From positions 1 through 43,833 of the IMG/VR virus record IMGVR_UViG_3300037258_000157: a stretch of 43,833 nt of DNA; one strand, given 5' to 3'. A program made the position numbers and the translations under genes. The notes under the pieces are model-generated. The model saw only the letters and a program-made list of their open reading frames with translations. It was not told where the DNA came from and did not search any database. Origin of the DNA: a virus. Positions 5,614-28,750 of this stretch are shown piece by piece; the stretch's first letter is position 1, and every line of letters begins with the position of its first letter.

Positions 5614-5648
5614 TGGAGGGCCAGTGCTCACCCAGCACTGGCCCTCCA
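5614..5648 (+). terminator. Strong hairpin terminator after the SSB-like gene
   Basis: TGGAGGGCCAGTGCT (5614-5628) and AGCACTGGCCCTCCA (5634-5648) pair perfectly over 15 bases around a 5-base loop. There is no T-run after it, which is common for terminators of high-GC bacteria. A promoter follows 11 bases later, so transcription appears to be stopped and restarted here. Confidence 0.8.
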
Positions 5649-5722: not shown

Positions 5723-6184
5723 ATGACGGCCACCGAAACCGAACTGCCCGCCGATGGTGGGACTGCTGCTGCACCTGCCGACAGCAACGGCACGAAGGTC
5801 CCGAAGGAAAAGCCCGTGTTCGGCCTCGTGCAGGTCGGCGACACGCTCCCGACCGTGACGCGTGCCACCAGCAACCTCGTCGGCGGCACGACCCGCGAGC
5901 AGCGTTTCAAGGACGACCTGGAGAAGATCAAGGCCGCGCCTGGTGTATGGTTCCAACTCGCCGACTACGGTGCTGGTACCACGGCCAAGAGGACCGCGAC
6001 GTTCCTCACCGAGGCCGTGCAGCCGATGTACACCAAGACCCACGCGGACGGCCATCAGGAACAGGTCGGCGGCGAACTGCTGGACTTGGTGAGCGATGGA
6101 CAGGGGAGTTACGAGTTCAAGGGCCAGCGTTCCGACGAGAACCCGAAGCGGTCGAAGTTGTACGCGCGGTACGTCACTGCGTAA
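5723..6184 (+). CDS. Hypothetical protein between SSB and exonuclease
   Basis: The 153-residue protein has a disordered Ala/Thr/Pro-rich N-terminus (about 35 residues), then a mixed alpha/beta part containing GLVQVGDTLPTVTRAT, a Gly-Val-Trp-Phe stretch, and a Lys/Arg-rich end. I recognise no family. It has its own promoter and lies between terminator-like hairpins on both sides, so it is expressed as a separate, perhaps abundant, message. ATG 5723 is preceded by a GAAAGTGAG stretch; GTG 5708 is an in-frame alternative. An accessory DNA-binding role is possible from context only. Confidence 0.75.
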   Translation: MTATETELPADGGTAAAPADSNGTKVPKEKPVFGLVQVGDTLPTVTRATSNLVGGTTREQRFKDDLEKIKAAPGVWFQLADYGAGTTAKRTATFLTEAVQPMYTKTHADGHQEQVGGELLDLVSDGQGSYEFKGQRSDENPKRSKLYARYVTA

Positions 6185-6203
6185 CGCAGGAGAGCAGAGA
6201 CGC

Positions 6204-6245
6204 GCTACGCGCACGTGAGCAGGTAGCTGGTCCCTGCCACGTAGC
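6204..6245 (+). other. First of three leader hairpins before the exonuclease gene
   Basis: GCTACG (6204-6209) pairs with CGTAGC (6240-6245) and, inside it, GCAGG (6219-6223) pairs with CCTGC (6233-6237). It opens a 205-base untranslated stretch with three successive hairpins (6204-6245, 6251-6309 and 6318-6390). Confidence 0.5.
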
Positions 6246-6250
6246 GGTCG

Positions 6251-6309
6251 ACAGCCCCACCCCAAGTAGGACTCTGGCTACGCGCCACGGTGGAACGGGG
6301 TGGGGCTGT
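6251..6309 (+). terminator. Terminator-like hairpin, second of three
   Basis: ACAGCCCCACCCC (6251-6263) and GGGGTGGGGCTGT (6297-6309) pair perfectly over 13 bases; the 33-base loop has a small CCAC/GTGG stem of its own. The right arm is followed by TTGTCATT, a weak T-rich tail. It probably ends the message of the gene at 5723 or acts as an attenuator for the exonuclease gene. Confidence 0.6.
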
Positions 6310-6317
6310 TTGTCATT

Positions 6318-6390
6318 CTGGTCGCCCCTGGTCCAGAGTTGGTCGGCACCCTGCAGAGGTGTCGCGCAGGTACCCGCCAGGGGCGACCAG
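6318..6390 (+). promoter_or_regulatory. Hairpin covering the exonuclease ribosome binding site
   Basis: CTGGTCGCCCCTGG (6318-6331) pairs perfectly with CCAGGGGCGACCAG (6377-6390) around a 45-base loop. The right arm contains AGGGG, the likely ribosome binding site, and its last base is the first base of the GTG start codon. When folded, the hairpin would block translation of the exonuclease gene, so a switch (protein, RNA or ligand) may control it. Confidence 0.6.
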
Positions 6391-7343
6391 TGAGCGACGC
6401 ACCGATCGCGTATGTAGACCAGGCCACCGGCAAGCACGTGTATAGGGCCAGTGCCCTCGGCATGTGCGACACAGCCCTCATGCTCGCCTTGCATGGCGTC
6501 GAGGGCGCACCACCGCCCGCCGCGATGCAGGCCCGGTTCGATGAAGGGCACAAGAACGAGCCGGTGATTATGGGCAAGCTGCTCGAAGCCAACCCGCAGA
6601 TGGTGATGCAGGCCAGTGACGACCAGATGCAGGTGGAGTTGGAAGTCGGCGGGGCGGTAGTACGCGGCCATATCGACGGGATCATCCAGCACGGGCCGAA
6701 CAGATACTTGGTCGAGGCGAAAGCACTCGGCAAGCAACTGTACAGCGAGTGGGAGAAGTCCGCGAAGTTCCCCAGTAGATTTCCCGAGGGTGGACTGTGG
6801 GATAAGTACGCACTGCAGACCAGTGTGTACCACTACGCGTTGGGCAAACTGCCGATCTGTTTCGTCGTCGGCGAGAAGGACGACAACGGCGACGTGCAGG
6901 GGATTTCGTTCAGATGGTACGCCGAAAGCATGACGCCACTCATCACCATCATGCAACGCGTGCTCAGCCTGGAGCTGCTGGCGAAGCAAGGGATGCCGAA
7001 GGATGATTGCACGAAAGGCGAGTATCCATGCCCGTACTATCAGTTCCACGCCGAGAAGATCGACAACGATGTGCTCGTGCTGGACGACAGCAAGCTAGAG
7101 GATCTGATCCGCGAAGTGAACAAGAAGCGCGAGTATGCGAAAGTGCCGGCAGAGGCACAGAAACAAGCCGAACAAGCACTGAAGGACTACGTGCGAGAGA
7201 TCGGTAGAGCAGAGGCAGGGATGGTGACGCGGGCTGGCAAGATGATCGTAAAATGGCACCACGAGAAAGTGCCTGCTGCAACGGTCGAGAGGAAAGCGTA
7301 CACGAAGGATTACTTCACGATCACGCAGGTTGGTGGCAAGTGA
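6390..7343 (+). CDS. Cas4/RecB-like PD-(D/E)XK exonuclease
   Basis: In the 317-residue reading the nuclease core is clear: RGHIDG with the metal-binding Asp at 96, then LVEAKA with Glu109 and Lys111 (the E-x-K). A cysteine at 26 and two at the C-terminal side (DC-TKGEYPC, spacing C-x5-C) resemble the iron-sulfur cluster of Cas4 and AddB nucleases, though I count three rather than four obvious ligands. Such phage enzymes resect DNA ends to make single strands for annealing. The neighbours, a putative SSB and Sak4, fit that exactly. GTG 6390 was chosen because the upstream in-frame codons run through hairpin arms. The stop overlaps the next start (GTGA). Confidence 0.85.
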   Translation: MSDAPIAYVDQATGKHVYRASALGMCDTALMLALHGVEGAPPPAAMQARFDEGHKNEPVIMGKLLEANPQMVMQASDDQMQVELEVGGAVVRGHIDGIIQHGPNRYLVEAKALGKQLYSEWEKSAKFPSRFPEGGLWDKYALQTSVYHYALGKLPICFVVGEKDDNGDVQGISFRWYAESMTPLITIMQRVLSLELLAKQGMPKDDCTKGEYPCPYYQFHAEKIDNDVLVLDDSKLEDLIREVNKKREYAKVPAEAQKQAEQALKDYVREIGRAEAGMVTRAGKMIVKWHHEKVPAATVERKAYTKDYFTITQVGGK

Positions 7344-8128
7344 CCGTCACACTGCACAGTCCCTACGCAAGCCGGGAACGTGTACTGGTATACGGTCCTC
7401 CAGGCAGCGGCAAGACGACCGCGATCCTACACCTCGCGCGTCGATGCCCGACCAGCACATTCTACGTGCTGGAAGTGAACGATGTCAGCTACGACCGGCT
7501 GTTAGATACAGAGTTCATGGACGTGCGCGCGGCAGGAAACGTGCAGACGGTGCGGATATGGGACTGGGAAGAACTGTTAGCCAGGTACAGTGAACTGGCC
7601 AAGGGCTTGCAAGCGAACGACTGGCTTGTAGGGGACCTGTTCGGCGACTCGTGGAAACTCGTACAGGACTGGTTCATCGAGAAAGTCCACGGTGTTGACC
7701 TCGCGGACTATGCGCTGCAGATGCGTCAGGCGAAATCGGGGAATGAGAAGTCGCTGGAGCTGCTGGACGGCTGGATGGACTGGTCAGTCATCAACCAACA
7801 GTACCACAAACTAGAGACCGCGATGCTGCGGTGTAACGGGCACGTGTTCTGCACTGCTGCTGCCGACAAATACGCGTCAGGGGCCGGCGATAAGGCGACC
7901 GATGCACTGTTGAGCCCGATCGGCTTCAAGCCGGTCGGGCAGAAGCATTTGGCACACAGGTTCCAGACTGTGTTGCTGGCAGATAAGACGCGGGGGGTAG
8001 GTGGAGGGTCATGGACGATGACTACCGTGAAGGACAGGGGGAGAGTGGAGATGGATCGGGTCGCGTGGAACGACTGGGCGACGAACTACATGGTGCAGGT
8101 TGCAGGCTGGACTCTACAGACAACTTGA
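7340..8128 (+). CDS. Sak4/RecA-like single-strand annealing ATPase
   Basis: A 262-residue P-loop ATPase with Walker A GPPGSGKT at residues 19-26, right at the N-terminus, and a hydrophobic-Asp stretch (WLVGDLFGDS) as Walker B. Size, position of the P-loop and neighbourhood match the AAA_24/Sak4 group of phage annealing proteins, remote RecA relatives that work with a cognate SSB. With the preceding exonuclease it would form a two-step recombination machine. GTG 7340 overlaps the previous stop (GTGA) with GGTTGGTGG upstream; a longer in-frame start would lie inside the exonuclease gene. A generic phage nucleotide-binding protein is the fallback name. Confidence 0.82.
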   Translation: MTVTLHSPYASRERVLVYGPPGSGKTTAILHLARRCPTSTFYVLEVNDVSYDRLLDTEFMDVRAAGNVQTVRIWDWEELLARYSELAKGLQANDWLVGDLFGDSWKLVQDWFIEKVHGVDLADYALQMRQAKSGNEKSLELLDGWMDWSVINQQYHKLETAMLRCNGHVFCTAAADKYASGAGDKATDALLSPIGFKPVGQKHLAHRFQTVLLADKTRGVGGGSWTMTTVKDRGRVEMDRVAWNDWATNYMVQVAGWTLQTT

Positions 8129-12354: not shown

Positions 12355-15300
12355 TCACACCACCTGCTCCAGTGTTGTTCGTGCCGCCACCCTGGATGGT
12401 GTTGAGAATAAGCTGCTGGATTTGCCTGACCTGCTCGCCAGTGTTGTAGTAGTCGAGTGCGTTATCAGACTGGAGTTGCTGGACCTGGCCGAGGACCGGC
12501 GCGAGTTGCGGGTATGCTAAGGCACCCCGCCAGTTACCGGATTTGAGGGAGTTGGAGAGGGCTGTGGATTGGGCAGTCTCACGGTTCACCTCATCCTTGT
12601 ACTGCTGCTGGATGATGTTGTTGGTCTGGTAAATGACCGGGAGGCCAGCCTGCGACATGACGAGACGTGACGCGGCACTTGGATCAGCAGAGAGGAGGGC
12701 TTTGAGTTCCGAACCTTTGGATAGCAACCCGGTGAGGATTTGTGTCTGCGGGATCGTGTTGTACAGGAAGTTCGTGATCGGGTTCGGGTGCGAGGCTGTC
12801 AGTTTGCCGGTCTGCGCGTCATACGAGACGTTCGGGTAGAGGTTCGTGCCACCACCCTGCAAGTTCACGCCGAGCTGTTCAAGTGCCGTGGAGATGATCG
12901 GGTTCGAGCCGGATAGAAGCCCAGCCAACGTCATGTAGTTCGCGACATCTTTGAACGGGTTGAGTGTATTGAGCGCGAGTTCCTTCACGTTGCCTTGCGC
13001 GTCCGGATGGCCGAGCATGAACGTGCCGAGCAGGGACTGTGGTAGGCCAGTACCGAGATCGTTCAGTTCAGTGCGGGCGACCGATGCGACGACAGCAGCA
13101 CGGAACGGATGGTCGATCGGGTAGTGGTACGCGTAGCGGAGAATCTGCTGCGTGAACCCATAGAACGGCAGGACAGATTTGAGTGCGACGCGTTCAAGTG
13201 GGGTCTGGTTATCCCACGACAAGATCACTTTACGCGCGAGTTGTTCGCCGGCAGCCTGCGCCTCGGTCTCGGACAAGCCGTCCTTGAGGGCTTCATCATG
13301 GCCGTACAAGTAGTTGATCGTCCGGTACATGTCGGTGATGTGCGACACGAGGTTATAGCTAGAGTCGAGGATACGTGTAGTGCCGTGTGAGACAGCCTGC
13401 ACAGCAGGGTTCTCACGAAATGCTTGGGTCATGTCCGCGAGCTTCCCACCATGTGAGATGTTCCACTCGATCAGCGGGTCACCGACACTGCCAAACGTAC
13501 TACGGAAGGACTCGGGCAGGTTGCTGAAATCCCCGTCGTGCGCAGCGTTCACGATGTCGCGCGCGTCCGACAGGTATTTCATTACAGTGAGAGGTGAGGA
13601 TTCGGCCGAGGTGAGAATGAAGCCACCAACCAAGTGGTTGAGTAGGAACCGCGGGGACAGGCCGAGGACGCTGTTGCGGAACAGTGTGGTGGGCAGATCG
13701 AACGCGCGCGGGAGTTCTGGCGGGTTGATGAACAGTTTTAGGTTGTTCATTACTGGTTTCGGTAGCCACGGCGCATTCGGGTCGAGGCTGGACTGCACAC
13801 CGAGGGCCTGTTTCACGTCCTGTGGAAGGGTCTCAACAGGGTACTTGACCCATTCGCGCTGTATGGCAGACCGGACAGCAGCGTCATGGTCGACGAACGG
13901 AGACTGGGAGAGTGTGCGCAGTGCAGTACCGGAACCGTTGTATTGGGCTCGAAGGTCGGCCTCGGTGCGCGCGAACGGTGCAACTGTTTCTCCATCTGCC
14001 GGGGTAGTGCGTAGGAAGTCCTGTAGGAATGACTTCGCATTCCGCAAGTTCAGCCACTCTAGGCCCTGGTGGGTGAGACCGACCGCGAGATCATGGACGT
14101 ATGGGGCGCTGGCGAGGGTGCGCGCGCGCACCTGGGTCGGATTCGGAATGTAGTTCTCGTCGATGGTACGCAGAGGTTTCGGGAAGTTGGTCTCTTGGAC
14201 CTGGCTAAGCCCGATGCGATGCATAAACAAGGGGTCGAGGCCCTGTTGCTTCGCGTCGAGAACAGCCTGACGTGCGTCGTTCATCCAACCCGATAGTTCC
14301 TGTGACGTGATTAGACCGTCTTTGATCGCGTACTGGTACAGCCCGTTCTGCACGTAGCTGTTATACAGGTCGTAGTTCGGGTTGTCGGTGAGCAGGAACC
14401 CACGGTCGGTGAGGGCTTGGCCGACCGACGACTTGATCGCGTCCTCCACGACCGGCGACCAACGTGCGGGTGTTAGTGCAATCTCTCGGCTACCGACGAG
14501 GCTACGGACGCGCGCGAGGCCGGCGTCGGTGTACTTCGACGCGCGAGTAAGCCAAGGTGAACTTGCAAGCTGGTCGGGTGGTGGGGGGTTATCCAGCCGT
14601 ACAATCGGGTTGGTGTCAAGCAGGTCGTGCGCCTGTGCGAATTGACCACTATTGACGAGACTCTTATAACCATCCGGTAGTTGGTACCCGTAGGTGTCGT
14701 AGACATAGTTCAGCCCCTGGAGCAGAGCCCGTTTAGAAGTTGCCGGTGCAGATGAATTGATGTATTCTTTCGCGTTGTCGACAAGGCTGCGGATCGAGTC
14801 GGGTGTGTCGGTAAGGGCCGCGAACCGTGCGTCGGACGTGAGCGGCGCATAGGCCGCGCGTAGTGCATTCGCGACCGGCGTGAACGCCTCATAGCGTGCT
14901 TGTACTGCCCGATAGTTCAGGAGCTGTTTCGCTTGTTGTGGCGTGAATACTTCCTGTCCGCCAAGCCACTGTTGCTGGGTCAGGAGATTGTTGTCCTCAC
15001 CGTACTGGGCGTACCGTGCGGCGATATCGCGGTAGTCATGCAGTGCAGCGAGTTCTGGTGGAGTGAGGGTAGGGTCGGTTGCCCAGGTACCCGACTCGGC
15101 CGCGTCGGTGAGGTACCGGACGCGGTCGGGGGCGATCTGCGCGTGCCAATCCTGTGCCCACTTCACGCTGTCTTTAGCGATGTTGTCGAGTAGGTCGGGG
15201 GACGCGATAGCAGGGTTGAGGGATTCTTTGACGCGTTCCGCGACACCTGATGCCATGATCGACATCTGACGCGACTGGCTACCCCACAGTTGCTGTGCGA

Positions 15301-27355: not shown

Positions 27356-28750
27356 TCAGTTGGGCGACGAGCCGTTCCCTGAGAGAACGCCTCGCAATTC
27401 TGCCACCATACCTGCACGATAGTCGGGCTGTCCAGATGGAGATGTGGGCAGAGGGGTATCGGCACGGGGAACCGAGCCAGCCGAACCGGCGAGCGAACCT
27501 GCACGTGCGCGGGCCTGCTGGGTCGCGCGGTCCGCCGCGAGCTGGCGTGATGCCTGCTGATCGACGATCCGTTGCCGAAGTGCAGGGTCCGCGAACGCGA
27601 CCTGCTCGAATGCTGAATAGTACGCAGCGGTTGGGTCGGCAGGGGATGCAGCGAACGTGCGCTGGAGAAGGTCGTTCGCCTGCTGGGTTTTCTGGATGAG
27701 GACAGCCATGTCCGCGTCCGGGAGCTGGTAGGTAGACTTGAACTGGTTGATTGCAGCATCACCGTAGGGCTTCAGGGTCGCGGCCTGGTTTTGGGCCGCG
27801 ATCTGGGCCTGGTACGCGGCCTGCTGCTGGGCGAGTTGCTGCTGTTGGGCAGCGAGAGTGGCGAGCTGCTGGGCAGTGTATGGATCGGGACCAGTCGGCT
27901 GCTGCACAACCGGTGTCTGTATGACGGGTTGTGGTGCAGCGAACGGGTCCGCGAACATCTGTGCAGGGAGTGGACCAGAGACCGACGGAGGTTGGGTGAC
28001 CCCCTGCACAGAACCTGGAGGGCCGAAGAACTGTTGGCCCGGTTGGATCGTAGTATTCGGCTGTGGAATATACGGATTCTGCGGCTGAACGTAATCGTTC
28101 GGTGGAACCGTGTAACCGTTGGTCGGTGCAGGAACCCCATTCGGTTGCGATGGCACACCGTTCGGATTGTTGATGTACGCCTGCAACCGGGCCATCTGCT
28201 CGGCCGACATGCCGGTGATCCACTGGTGGACGAGGCTCAGTTCCTGCAGGGCCTGCGGCGTGACCTGGGTTCCGTCAGCGAGAGTGACGGTTTCACCACT
28301 TGACCCTGGGGATAAGGTTGGGGGTGACGCGGGCAGCGCGTACGGGTCAACGACCGTTGGCTGGTTCGGTGCGACCTGTGCGCCGGCTGCTGTAGCGTCA
28401 GGCAACTGCCCTGGGGGTTGCTGTTGTTGCGAGGGTGCACCGGTTCCAGGGTCCGGTGCACCCACGCTCTGGTCACCAGCGGGCGCGGGTGCTGTACCGG
28501 GTGCGGTGGTGGGCGCGGGTGCGTTCGGGTCGACGACGGTCGGCTGCGCGTACTGCGGGTGTGTCGCGAACCATTCTTCGAGCCGCGGATCCATGTCGGA
28601 CTGCACCGCGACCGCGGGAGCCTGGTGCACGATGGCGGGTGTAGGGCCAGGGGCAGGTGCCGGCGCGCCTGCGGGATCAACAGGCGCGCCGGCAGGCCCG
28701 CTGGGGGGAAGGACCGCGGGCGAAGTGGGTAGAGGTTCGGTGGGTGTCAT
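27356..28750 (-). CDS. Scaffold-like protein, Pro/Gln-rich
   Basis: The 464-residue protein is dominated by Pro, Gln and Ala. After a disordered half with several short VDP-rich repeats it has a helical region (about 290-420) with LATLAAQQQQLAQQQAAYQA and QFKSTYQLPDADMAVLIQKT, and a short conserved-looking end (DYRAGMVAELRGVLSG). Position right before the capsid gene and the helical C-terminal half fit a capsid scaffolding protein. GGGAG precedes ATG 28750. No protease motif is visible. Confidence 0.75.
   Translation of the reverse strand: MTPTEPLPTSPAVLPPSGPAGAPVDPAGAPAPAPGPTPAIVHQAPAVAVQSDMDPRLEEWFATHPQYAQPTVVDPNAPAPTTAPGTAPAPAGDQSVGAPDPGTGAPSQQQQPPGQLPDATAAGAQVAPNQPTVVDPYALPASPPTLSPGSSGETVTLADGTQVTPQALQELSLVHQWITGMSAEQMARLQAYINNPNGVPSQPNGVPAPTNGYTVPPNDYVQPQNPYIPQPNTTIQPGQQFFGPPGSVQGVTQPPSVSGPLPAQMFADPFAAPQPVIQTPVVQQPTGPDPYTAQQLATLAAQQQQLAQQQAAYQAQIAAQNQAATLKPYGDAAINQFKSTYQLPDADMAVLIQKTQQANDLLQRTFAASPADPTAAYYSAFEQVAFADPALRQRIVDQQASRQLAADRATQQARARAGSLAGSAGSVPRADTPLPTSPSGQPDYRAGMVAELRGVLSGNGSSPN

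Follow-up and report, generated by a model that had tools for sequence, protein, structure and literature searches.

The window, the whole 43.8-kb virus record analysed here, derives from a tailed phage, as indicated by its portal and terminase genes, and its portal protein displays only ~23% identity to those of Arthrobacter, Microbacterium and Paenibacillus phages. The locus of interest comprises two upstream genes, here gene A and gene B, followed by a nuclease gene and an ATPase gene (Table 1). The product of the nuclease gene matched phrog_1990 (Cas4-domain exonuclease, E 6e-13) and phrog_434 (RecE-like, E 1.7e-8), with no Pfam match. The gap of 205 nt between the gene B stop codon (6184) and the Cas4-like gene holds three consecutive hairpins, H1, H2 and H3.

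Table 1. Genes and RNA features at the Cas4 locus, in window coordinates
Feature	Coordinates	Strand	Basis or property
Gene A, predicted OB-fold SSB-like protein, 277 aa	4748..5581	+	ORF, structure model
15-bp perfect hairpin, 33 nt past gene A stop	5614..5648	+	z -8.13
Gene B, small protein, 153 aa, predicted alpha/beta fold	5723..6184	+	ORF, relatives
H1, weak, alternative pairings	6203..6246	+	starts 19 nt past gene B stop; z -2.33
H2, 13-bp perfect arms ACAGCCCCACCCC/GGGGTGGGGCTGT, then T-rich TTGTCATTCT; terminator-like	6251..6309	+	folding
H3, 14-bp perfect arms, right arm buries Cas4 ribosome site	6318..6390	+	folding
AGGGG, ribosome-binding-site-like, in H3 right arm	6379..6383	+	accessibility 0.00
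Cas4-domain/RecE-like exonuclease gene, GTG start	6390..7343	+	PHROG matches, homologue starts
AAA ATPase (AAA_24 / Sak4-like)	7340..8128	+	family matches

No Pfam or PHROG family was matched by the gene A product. Its structure model contains a beta-rich core (pLDDT 79), for which the best match in the PDB was the plasmid protein PrgE (E 2e-3, prob 1.0); viral models named SSB or DUF669 were matched at E ~1e-4 to 1e-2 and bacterial SSBs in the PDB at E >0.05, and TM-scores were low in all these comparisons. The modelled protein appears to resemble OB-fold ssDNA-binding proteins only weakly. The gene B product (model pLDDT 76) matched no Pfam or PHROG family and no known fold. The original prediction that the neighbours of the nuclease gene encode SSB-like or annealing proteins survives in part, through the weak OB-fold likeness of the 4748 product, and finds no match in the 5723 product. 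The gene B family (A7), represented by 5723-6184 and its relatives, is small and fast-evolving, and retains its place between the OB-fold gene and Cas4.

The leader as a whole (6204-6410) folds with a minimum free energy of -113.8 kcal/mol (z -5.09), which none of 200 shuffled sequences equalled. The same was true of H2 (6251-6309; -37 kcal/mol, z -4.05; 0/200) and H3 (6318-6390; -47.7 kcal/mol, z -5.49; 0/200) when each was folded alone. H1 is judged weak because 4/200 shuffles matched or beat its region folded alone (6198-6250; z -2.33), and because it takes a different pairing in the full-length leader fold. The arms of H2 and H3 are complementary at 13/13 and 14/14 positions, respectively, and the hairpins are separated by 4 nt (H1-H2) and 8 nt (H2-H3). 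The right arm of H3, CCAGGGGCGACCAG (6377-6390), includes AGGGG as well as the first base of the GTG start. The three hairpins claimed to precede the Cas4-like gene are thus real in the case of H2 and H3, which lie far beyond chance, and less secure for H1, while the description of H3 as a 14-pair perfect stem whose right arm carries AGGGG and touches the start codon is confirmed.

Seven perfect-arm hairpins of at least 13 bp (loop up to 60) are present in the full window, and 10 randomised windows contained none above 12 bp. These are H3, those at 1444, 1596, 1789, 5614 and 6251, which all lie ahead of the nuclease in the left arm, and one at 28658. This last, a 14-bp perfect hairpin (28658-28694), is located within a proline/alanine-rich ORF (27356-28750, minus strand). 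Rfam 15 gave no match above the gathering threshold in the window.

Upstream of the locus, AAGTAGAACGATACC occurs as two exact copies and a partial third among 1400-1414, 1627-1640 and 1750-1764. The partial copy sits in the loop of a perfect hairpin with an 18-bp stem (1596-1658), and the copies bracket three strong hairpins. When up to 3 mismatches were allowed, AAGTAGAACGATACC had 4 matches in the window against 0.53 expected, and the stretch near 1400-1764 is possibly an early control region. Right after the 18-bp hairpin is a promoter-like TTGACT, 15 nt, TATAGT (1660-1686), recognised by eye, its spacing being outside the range of the scan.

Relatives of the gene block

Searches at nucleotide and protein level with the Cas4 gene as query recovered no relatives from phage records or IMG/VR, and neither the helicase nor the ATPase, as single IMG/VR queries, returned any. 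The major capsid protein as IMG/VR query yielded 7 and then 36 loci; a Cas4 homologue was present in 6 of the 33 distinct capsid-relative records searched, and many of the others are fragments. An alignment of five helicases, from the window and four relatives, led to 79 loci. In total 41 sequences were examined, comprising 37 of the 79 helicase loci (L061-L097), L058-L060, which had been fetched earlier, and the window. A Cas4 homologue was detected by profile in 32 of the 41, with no profile match in L074, L081, L085 and L091-L096. The counts of hairpins, occlusion and pre-Cas4 z values given below leave out the near-duplicates L063 and L079, L068 (on the same contig as L059), and L082, L084 and L088, whose Cas4 start was not resolved; L066 and L089 were kept in the perfect-arm hairpin count and dropped from the other two.

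The order of the block in relatives is helicase, gene A (4748), gene B (5723), Cas4 and ATPase, and extra genes are often inserted ahead of Cas4. Neither the Cas4 nor the helicase profile matched in eleven capsid relatives, several of them fragments. Near-full-length phages with the same capsid type and no match to the two profiles are G008, G011, G013, G014 and G020 (L015, L023, L025, L026 and L033). Early modules appear to have been swapped in same-capsid phages without a match to the helicase/Cas4 block. No capsid relatives were found in bacterial genomes, an exact search of IMG/VR with the H3 arm found nothing, and none of the searches identified a close relative carrying the same H3 hairpin. 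Close pairs within the block are identical at the hairpin site. A literature search, covering the open library only, found no paper on a Cas4 leader hairpin.

The Cas4 start codon and its ribosome site

The frame of the Cas4 ORF is open upstream as far as a GTG at 6300. Homologues begin 15-17 residues ahead of a YRAS-like motif, as the window protein does from GTG 6390, and their N-termini are MSD or MGD, often followed by RP (L060, L062, L065, L067 and others), or MSDAP (L078 and L087). As these N-termini match GTG 6390, the Cas4 start is fixed at 6390, the codon on which the original prediction depended.

Occlusion of the start was calculated as the predicted cost of forcing open positions -15 to +3. 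At 27.7 kcal/mol, the Cas4 start was the most costly to open of 44 starts in the window; the remaining 43 ranged from 1.8 to 16.3 kcal/mol, in a list that derives from the analysis's own gene calling, so that single entries may err, but the second value lies far below 27.7. The Cas4 starts of 23 relatives required 2.2-13.4 kcal/mol, none approaching 27.7. The claim of a hidden ribosome site is thus supported, the site being predicted to be buried far deeper than any other start tested. In the competition between ribosomes and RNA structure, a stem of -47.7 kcal/mol predicts almost no initiation unless it is opened. As in the T4-type arrangement, the prediction places the ribosome site of the true start within a stable, paired helix. 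Occlusion of the Cas4 site was not kept in relatives, a test added in this analysis that is not a published criterion.

Position of the hairpins in related phages

The hairpins of relatives have perfect arms of 10-19 bp with unrelated sequences, the arms being replaced wholesale between relatives, while their location is consistent. In ten relatives (L058, L060, L061, L064, L066, L069, L083, L086, L087 and L097) a hairpin lies 5-79 nt beyond the gene B stop, compared with 67 nt from this stop to H2 in the window; L087 was assigned to gene B by position only, as the gene B profile did not reach it. Between the hairpin and the start of the Cas4 ORF these ten have from 18 nt to 2.6 kb. In L062, L071, L072 and L077 hairpins follow the gene that occupies the place of gene B, which in L071 and L072 is not of the small gene B family. 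Arrays of two or three hairpins are present in L069, L077 and L083. Three strong hairpins in a row follow the OB-fold gene of L077 (11395-11580), far from Cas4.

Folding statistics display the same pattern. Across 17 genomes the 120 nt after the gene B stop gave a mean z of -3.40, with 11/17 below -2, compared with -0.77 for the last 120 coding nt and +0.15 for the segment 400-520 nt downstream. The six not below -2 were L065, L067, L073, L089, L058 and the window itself; in L058 and the window the 120-nt segment cuts through the hairpin or stops before its end, while L065, L067, L073 and L089 are without strong structure after the stop and do not fit the pattern. Perfect-arm hairpins of at least 10 bp were found no more than 260 nt past the upstream stop in 10 of 25 gaps, against 0.35 expected from shuffles, and their density was 2.4 per kb in gaps versus 0.05-0.18 per kb within the five genes. 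The 120 nt before Cas4 had a mean z of -2.75 where the upstream gene is adjacent (9 genomes), 0.04 where it is not (8) and -0.53 where the upstream gene is unassigned (7), with adjacency defined by a cut-off of 240 nt picked after the gaps had been seen and with the window itself in the adjacent group. An exception is L080, in which the upstream gene is unassigned and z before Cas4 is -3.65.

The z values after the gene B stop and before Cas4 show that the structure goes along with the 3' end of the upstream gene. The proposal that the three hairpins constitute a leader of the nuclease gene is not supported, since in relatives they stay at the upstream 3' end and are absent ahead of Cas4 when it has moved away. 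The idea that a neighbouring protein acts as the regulator gained no support. A spacer of 18-27 nt, in which the ribosome site is free, separates the end of the last hairpin from the Cas4 start in L064, L071, L072 and L083. The window has no such spacer, and its Cas4 ribosome site is part of H3.

A probable boundary element and its alternatives

Gupta and Pal (2021; PMC8355165) report hairpin clusters within 80 nt of stop codons as intrinsic terminators for which poly-U is not required, and place 98% of correctly identified intrinsic terminator sites no more than 80 nt from the stop. H1 and H2 lie 19 and 67 nt beyond 6184, within ~80 nt, while H3, at +134, is beyond this distance, and both spacings are below 15 nt, the distance under which the hairpins of such clusters act as a unit. 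The window is thus like the described clusters in its close, stable hairpins soon after a stop and in the optional nature of poly-U, and differs from them in that its putative cluster is inside an apparent operon and its last hairpin overlaps the next ribosome site. The frequency of T after stems was 29% versus a background of 17% (19 hairpins). H2, with a loop of 33, has 6 T in its 10-nt tail and H3 has 1; H3, like several of the hairpins in relatives, is without a T tail. An intrinsic-terminator scan, which admits loops of 3-8 only, identified none in the hairpin stretch.

We consider that H1-H3 probably represent a tandem, leaky terminator-like or 3'-end-forming cluster that closes the gene A/B pair, with the upstream genes in excess over the nuclease. 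Two strong hairpins and a weak one at the 3' boundary of the pair would impose a leaky stop on transcription, such that the OB-fold protein and its small partner would be produced in larger amounts than the recombination nuclease. The spacer that carries the Cas4 ribosome site in relatives would have been lost here, leaving the site inside the right arm of H3, and very little Cas4 should therefore be translated from read-through mRNA as long as the stem stays closed. From the structures and their positions we infer termination activity, its leakiness and low Cas4 output. Most likely the cluster is for the most part a control element of a common sort, its one peculiarity being the burial of a ribosome site by H3 in this virus only.

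The same 3'-end position is compatible with hairpins that stabilise or process the upstream mRNA, either as a barrier to 3'-exonucleases or as the target of an RNase III-type cut, which in H3 would free the Cas4 site. This is a tentative possibility, consistent with the several hairpins that lack T tails, although the T enrichment after many stems is a better fit to termination. Dedicated translational control of the nuclease, in which H3 silences Cas4 on read-through RNA until a later internal promoter, a protein or a cut frees the site, is unlikely. It draws on the opening cost at the Cas4 start, unrivalled in the window and in the 23 relatives, on the buried site belonging to the true start, and on precedent in the T4 genes e, soc, 49 and I-TevI, in which the ribosome site and the edge of the start codon likewise belong to the 3' arm of a highly stable helix, one case being a nuclease gene (PMC3014915, PMC2988022). 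However, relatives lack the occlusion, the hairpins track the upstream gene, and 6150-6420 contains no sigma-70-like promoter, though the phage's own promoters may differ from sigma-70. Unlike the T4 set, the window has no detected releasing promoter, its arrangement is not conserved in relatives, and other strong hairpins precede H3. The overlap of H3 with the ribosome site may be a selected switch, as in T4, or a by-product of crowding. The hairpin, free ribosome site and nuclease start of L064, L072 and L083 are similar to those of seg43 in Aeromonas phage 25 (PMC2988022), whereas the window hairpin includes the ribosome site.

Production of Cas4 by translational coupling is improbable. Here a ribosome in the leader frame 6310-6393, whose TGA overlaps the GTG start (GTGA), or one from 6300, would unwind H3. 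The leader and Cas4 frames are both open through H3, and in L059 and L060 Cas4 overlaps the preceding ORF. The GTGA overlap, however, is automatic once the second codon begins with A, the N-terminal extension from 6300 has no homologue, and the leader frame offers only TTG or CTG starts without a free ribosome site. A leader peptide was judged weak. That the hairpins act as DNA, for example as an origin of replication or a cruciform bound by protein, is very improbable indeed; the arms are perfect and the site is in a replication/recombination block, but the hairpins are placed after gene ends on the coding strand, which is also the strand that shows T enrichment downstream of the stems.

Two further systems bear some likeness to the locus. 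The ESAS of cluster K mycobacteriophages are also inverted repeats just upstream of the starts of selected phage genes; ESAS, however, share a consensus and accompany a 13-bp SAS (PMC3203893), while the window's arms share no consensus and no SAS was found at the start, the single match in the window, at 12910, being at chance level. The autogenous operator of T4 gene 32 similarly places an ssDNA-binding gene beside structured RNA. That operator (PMC3014915) is a pseudoknot with an A+U-rich site, 5' of the SSB gene's own start, whereas the hairpins of the window are 3' of the SSB-like and small genes.

The preferred reading, a leaky boundary at the end of the gene A/B pair, describes a regulatory boundary that is marked by conserved position, not sequence, in a large lineage of uncultured phages. 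It also cautions that a hairpin beside a start codon should not be equated with a translational switch before asking which gene the hairpin accompanies. A two-layer brake, in which the cluster stops most transcription and H3 (-48 kcal/mol) then locks the nuclease ribosome site until a phage-specific event opens the stem, whether a late start within it, cleavage of the RNA or the action of a helicase, is quite unlikely; if true, the nuclease would appear at a defined time only, and the phage would provide a straightforward example of a terminator with a second role in silencing the gene that follows.
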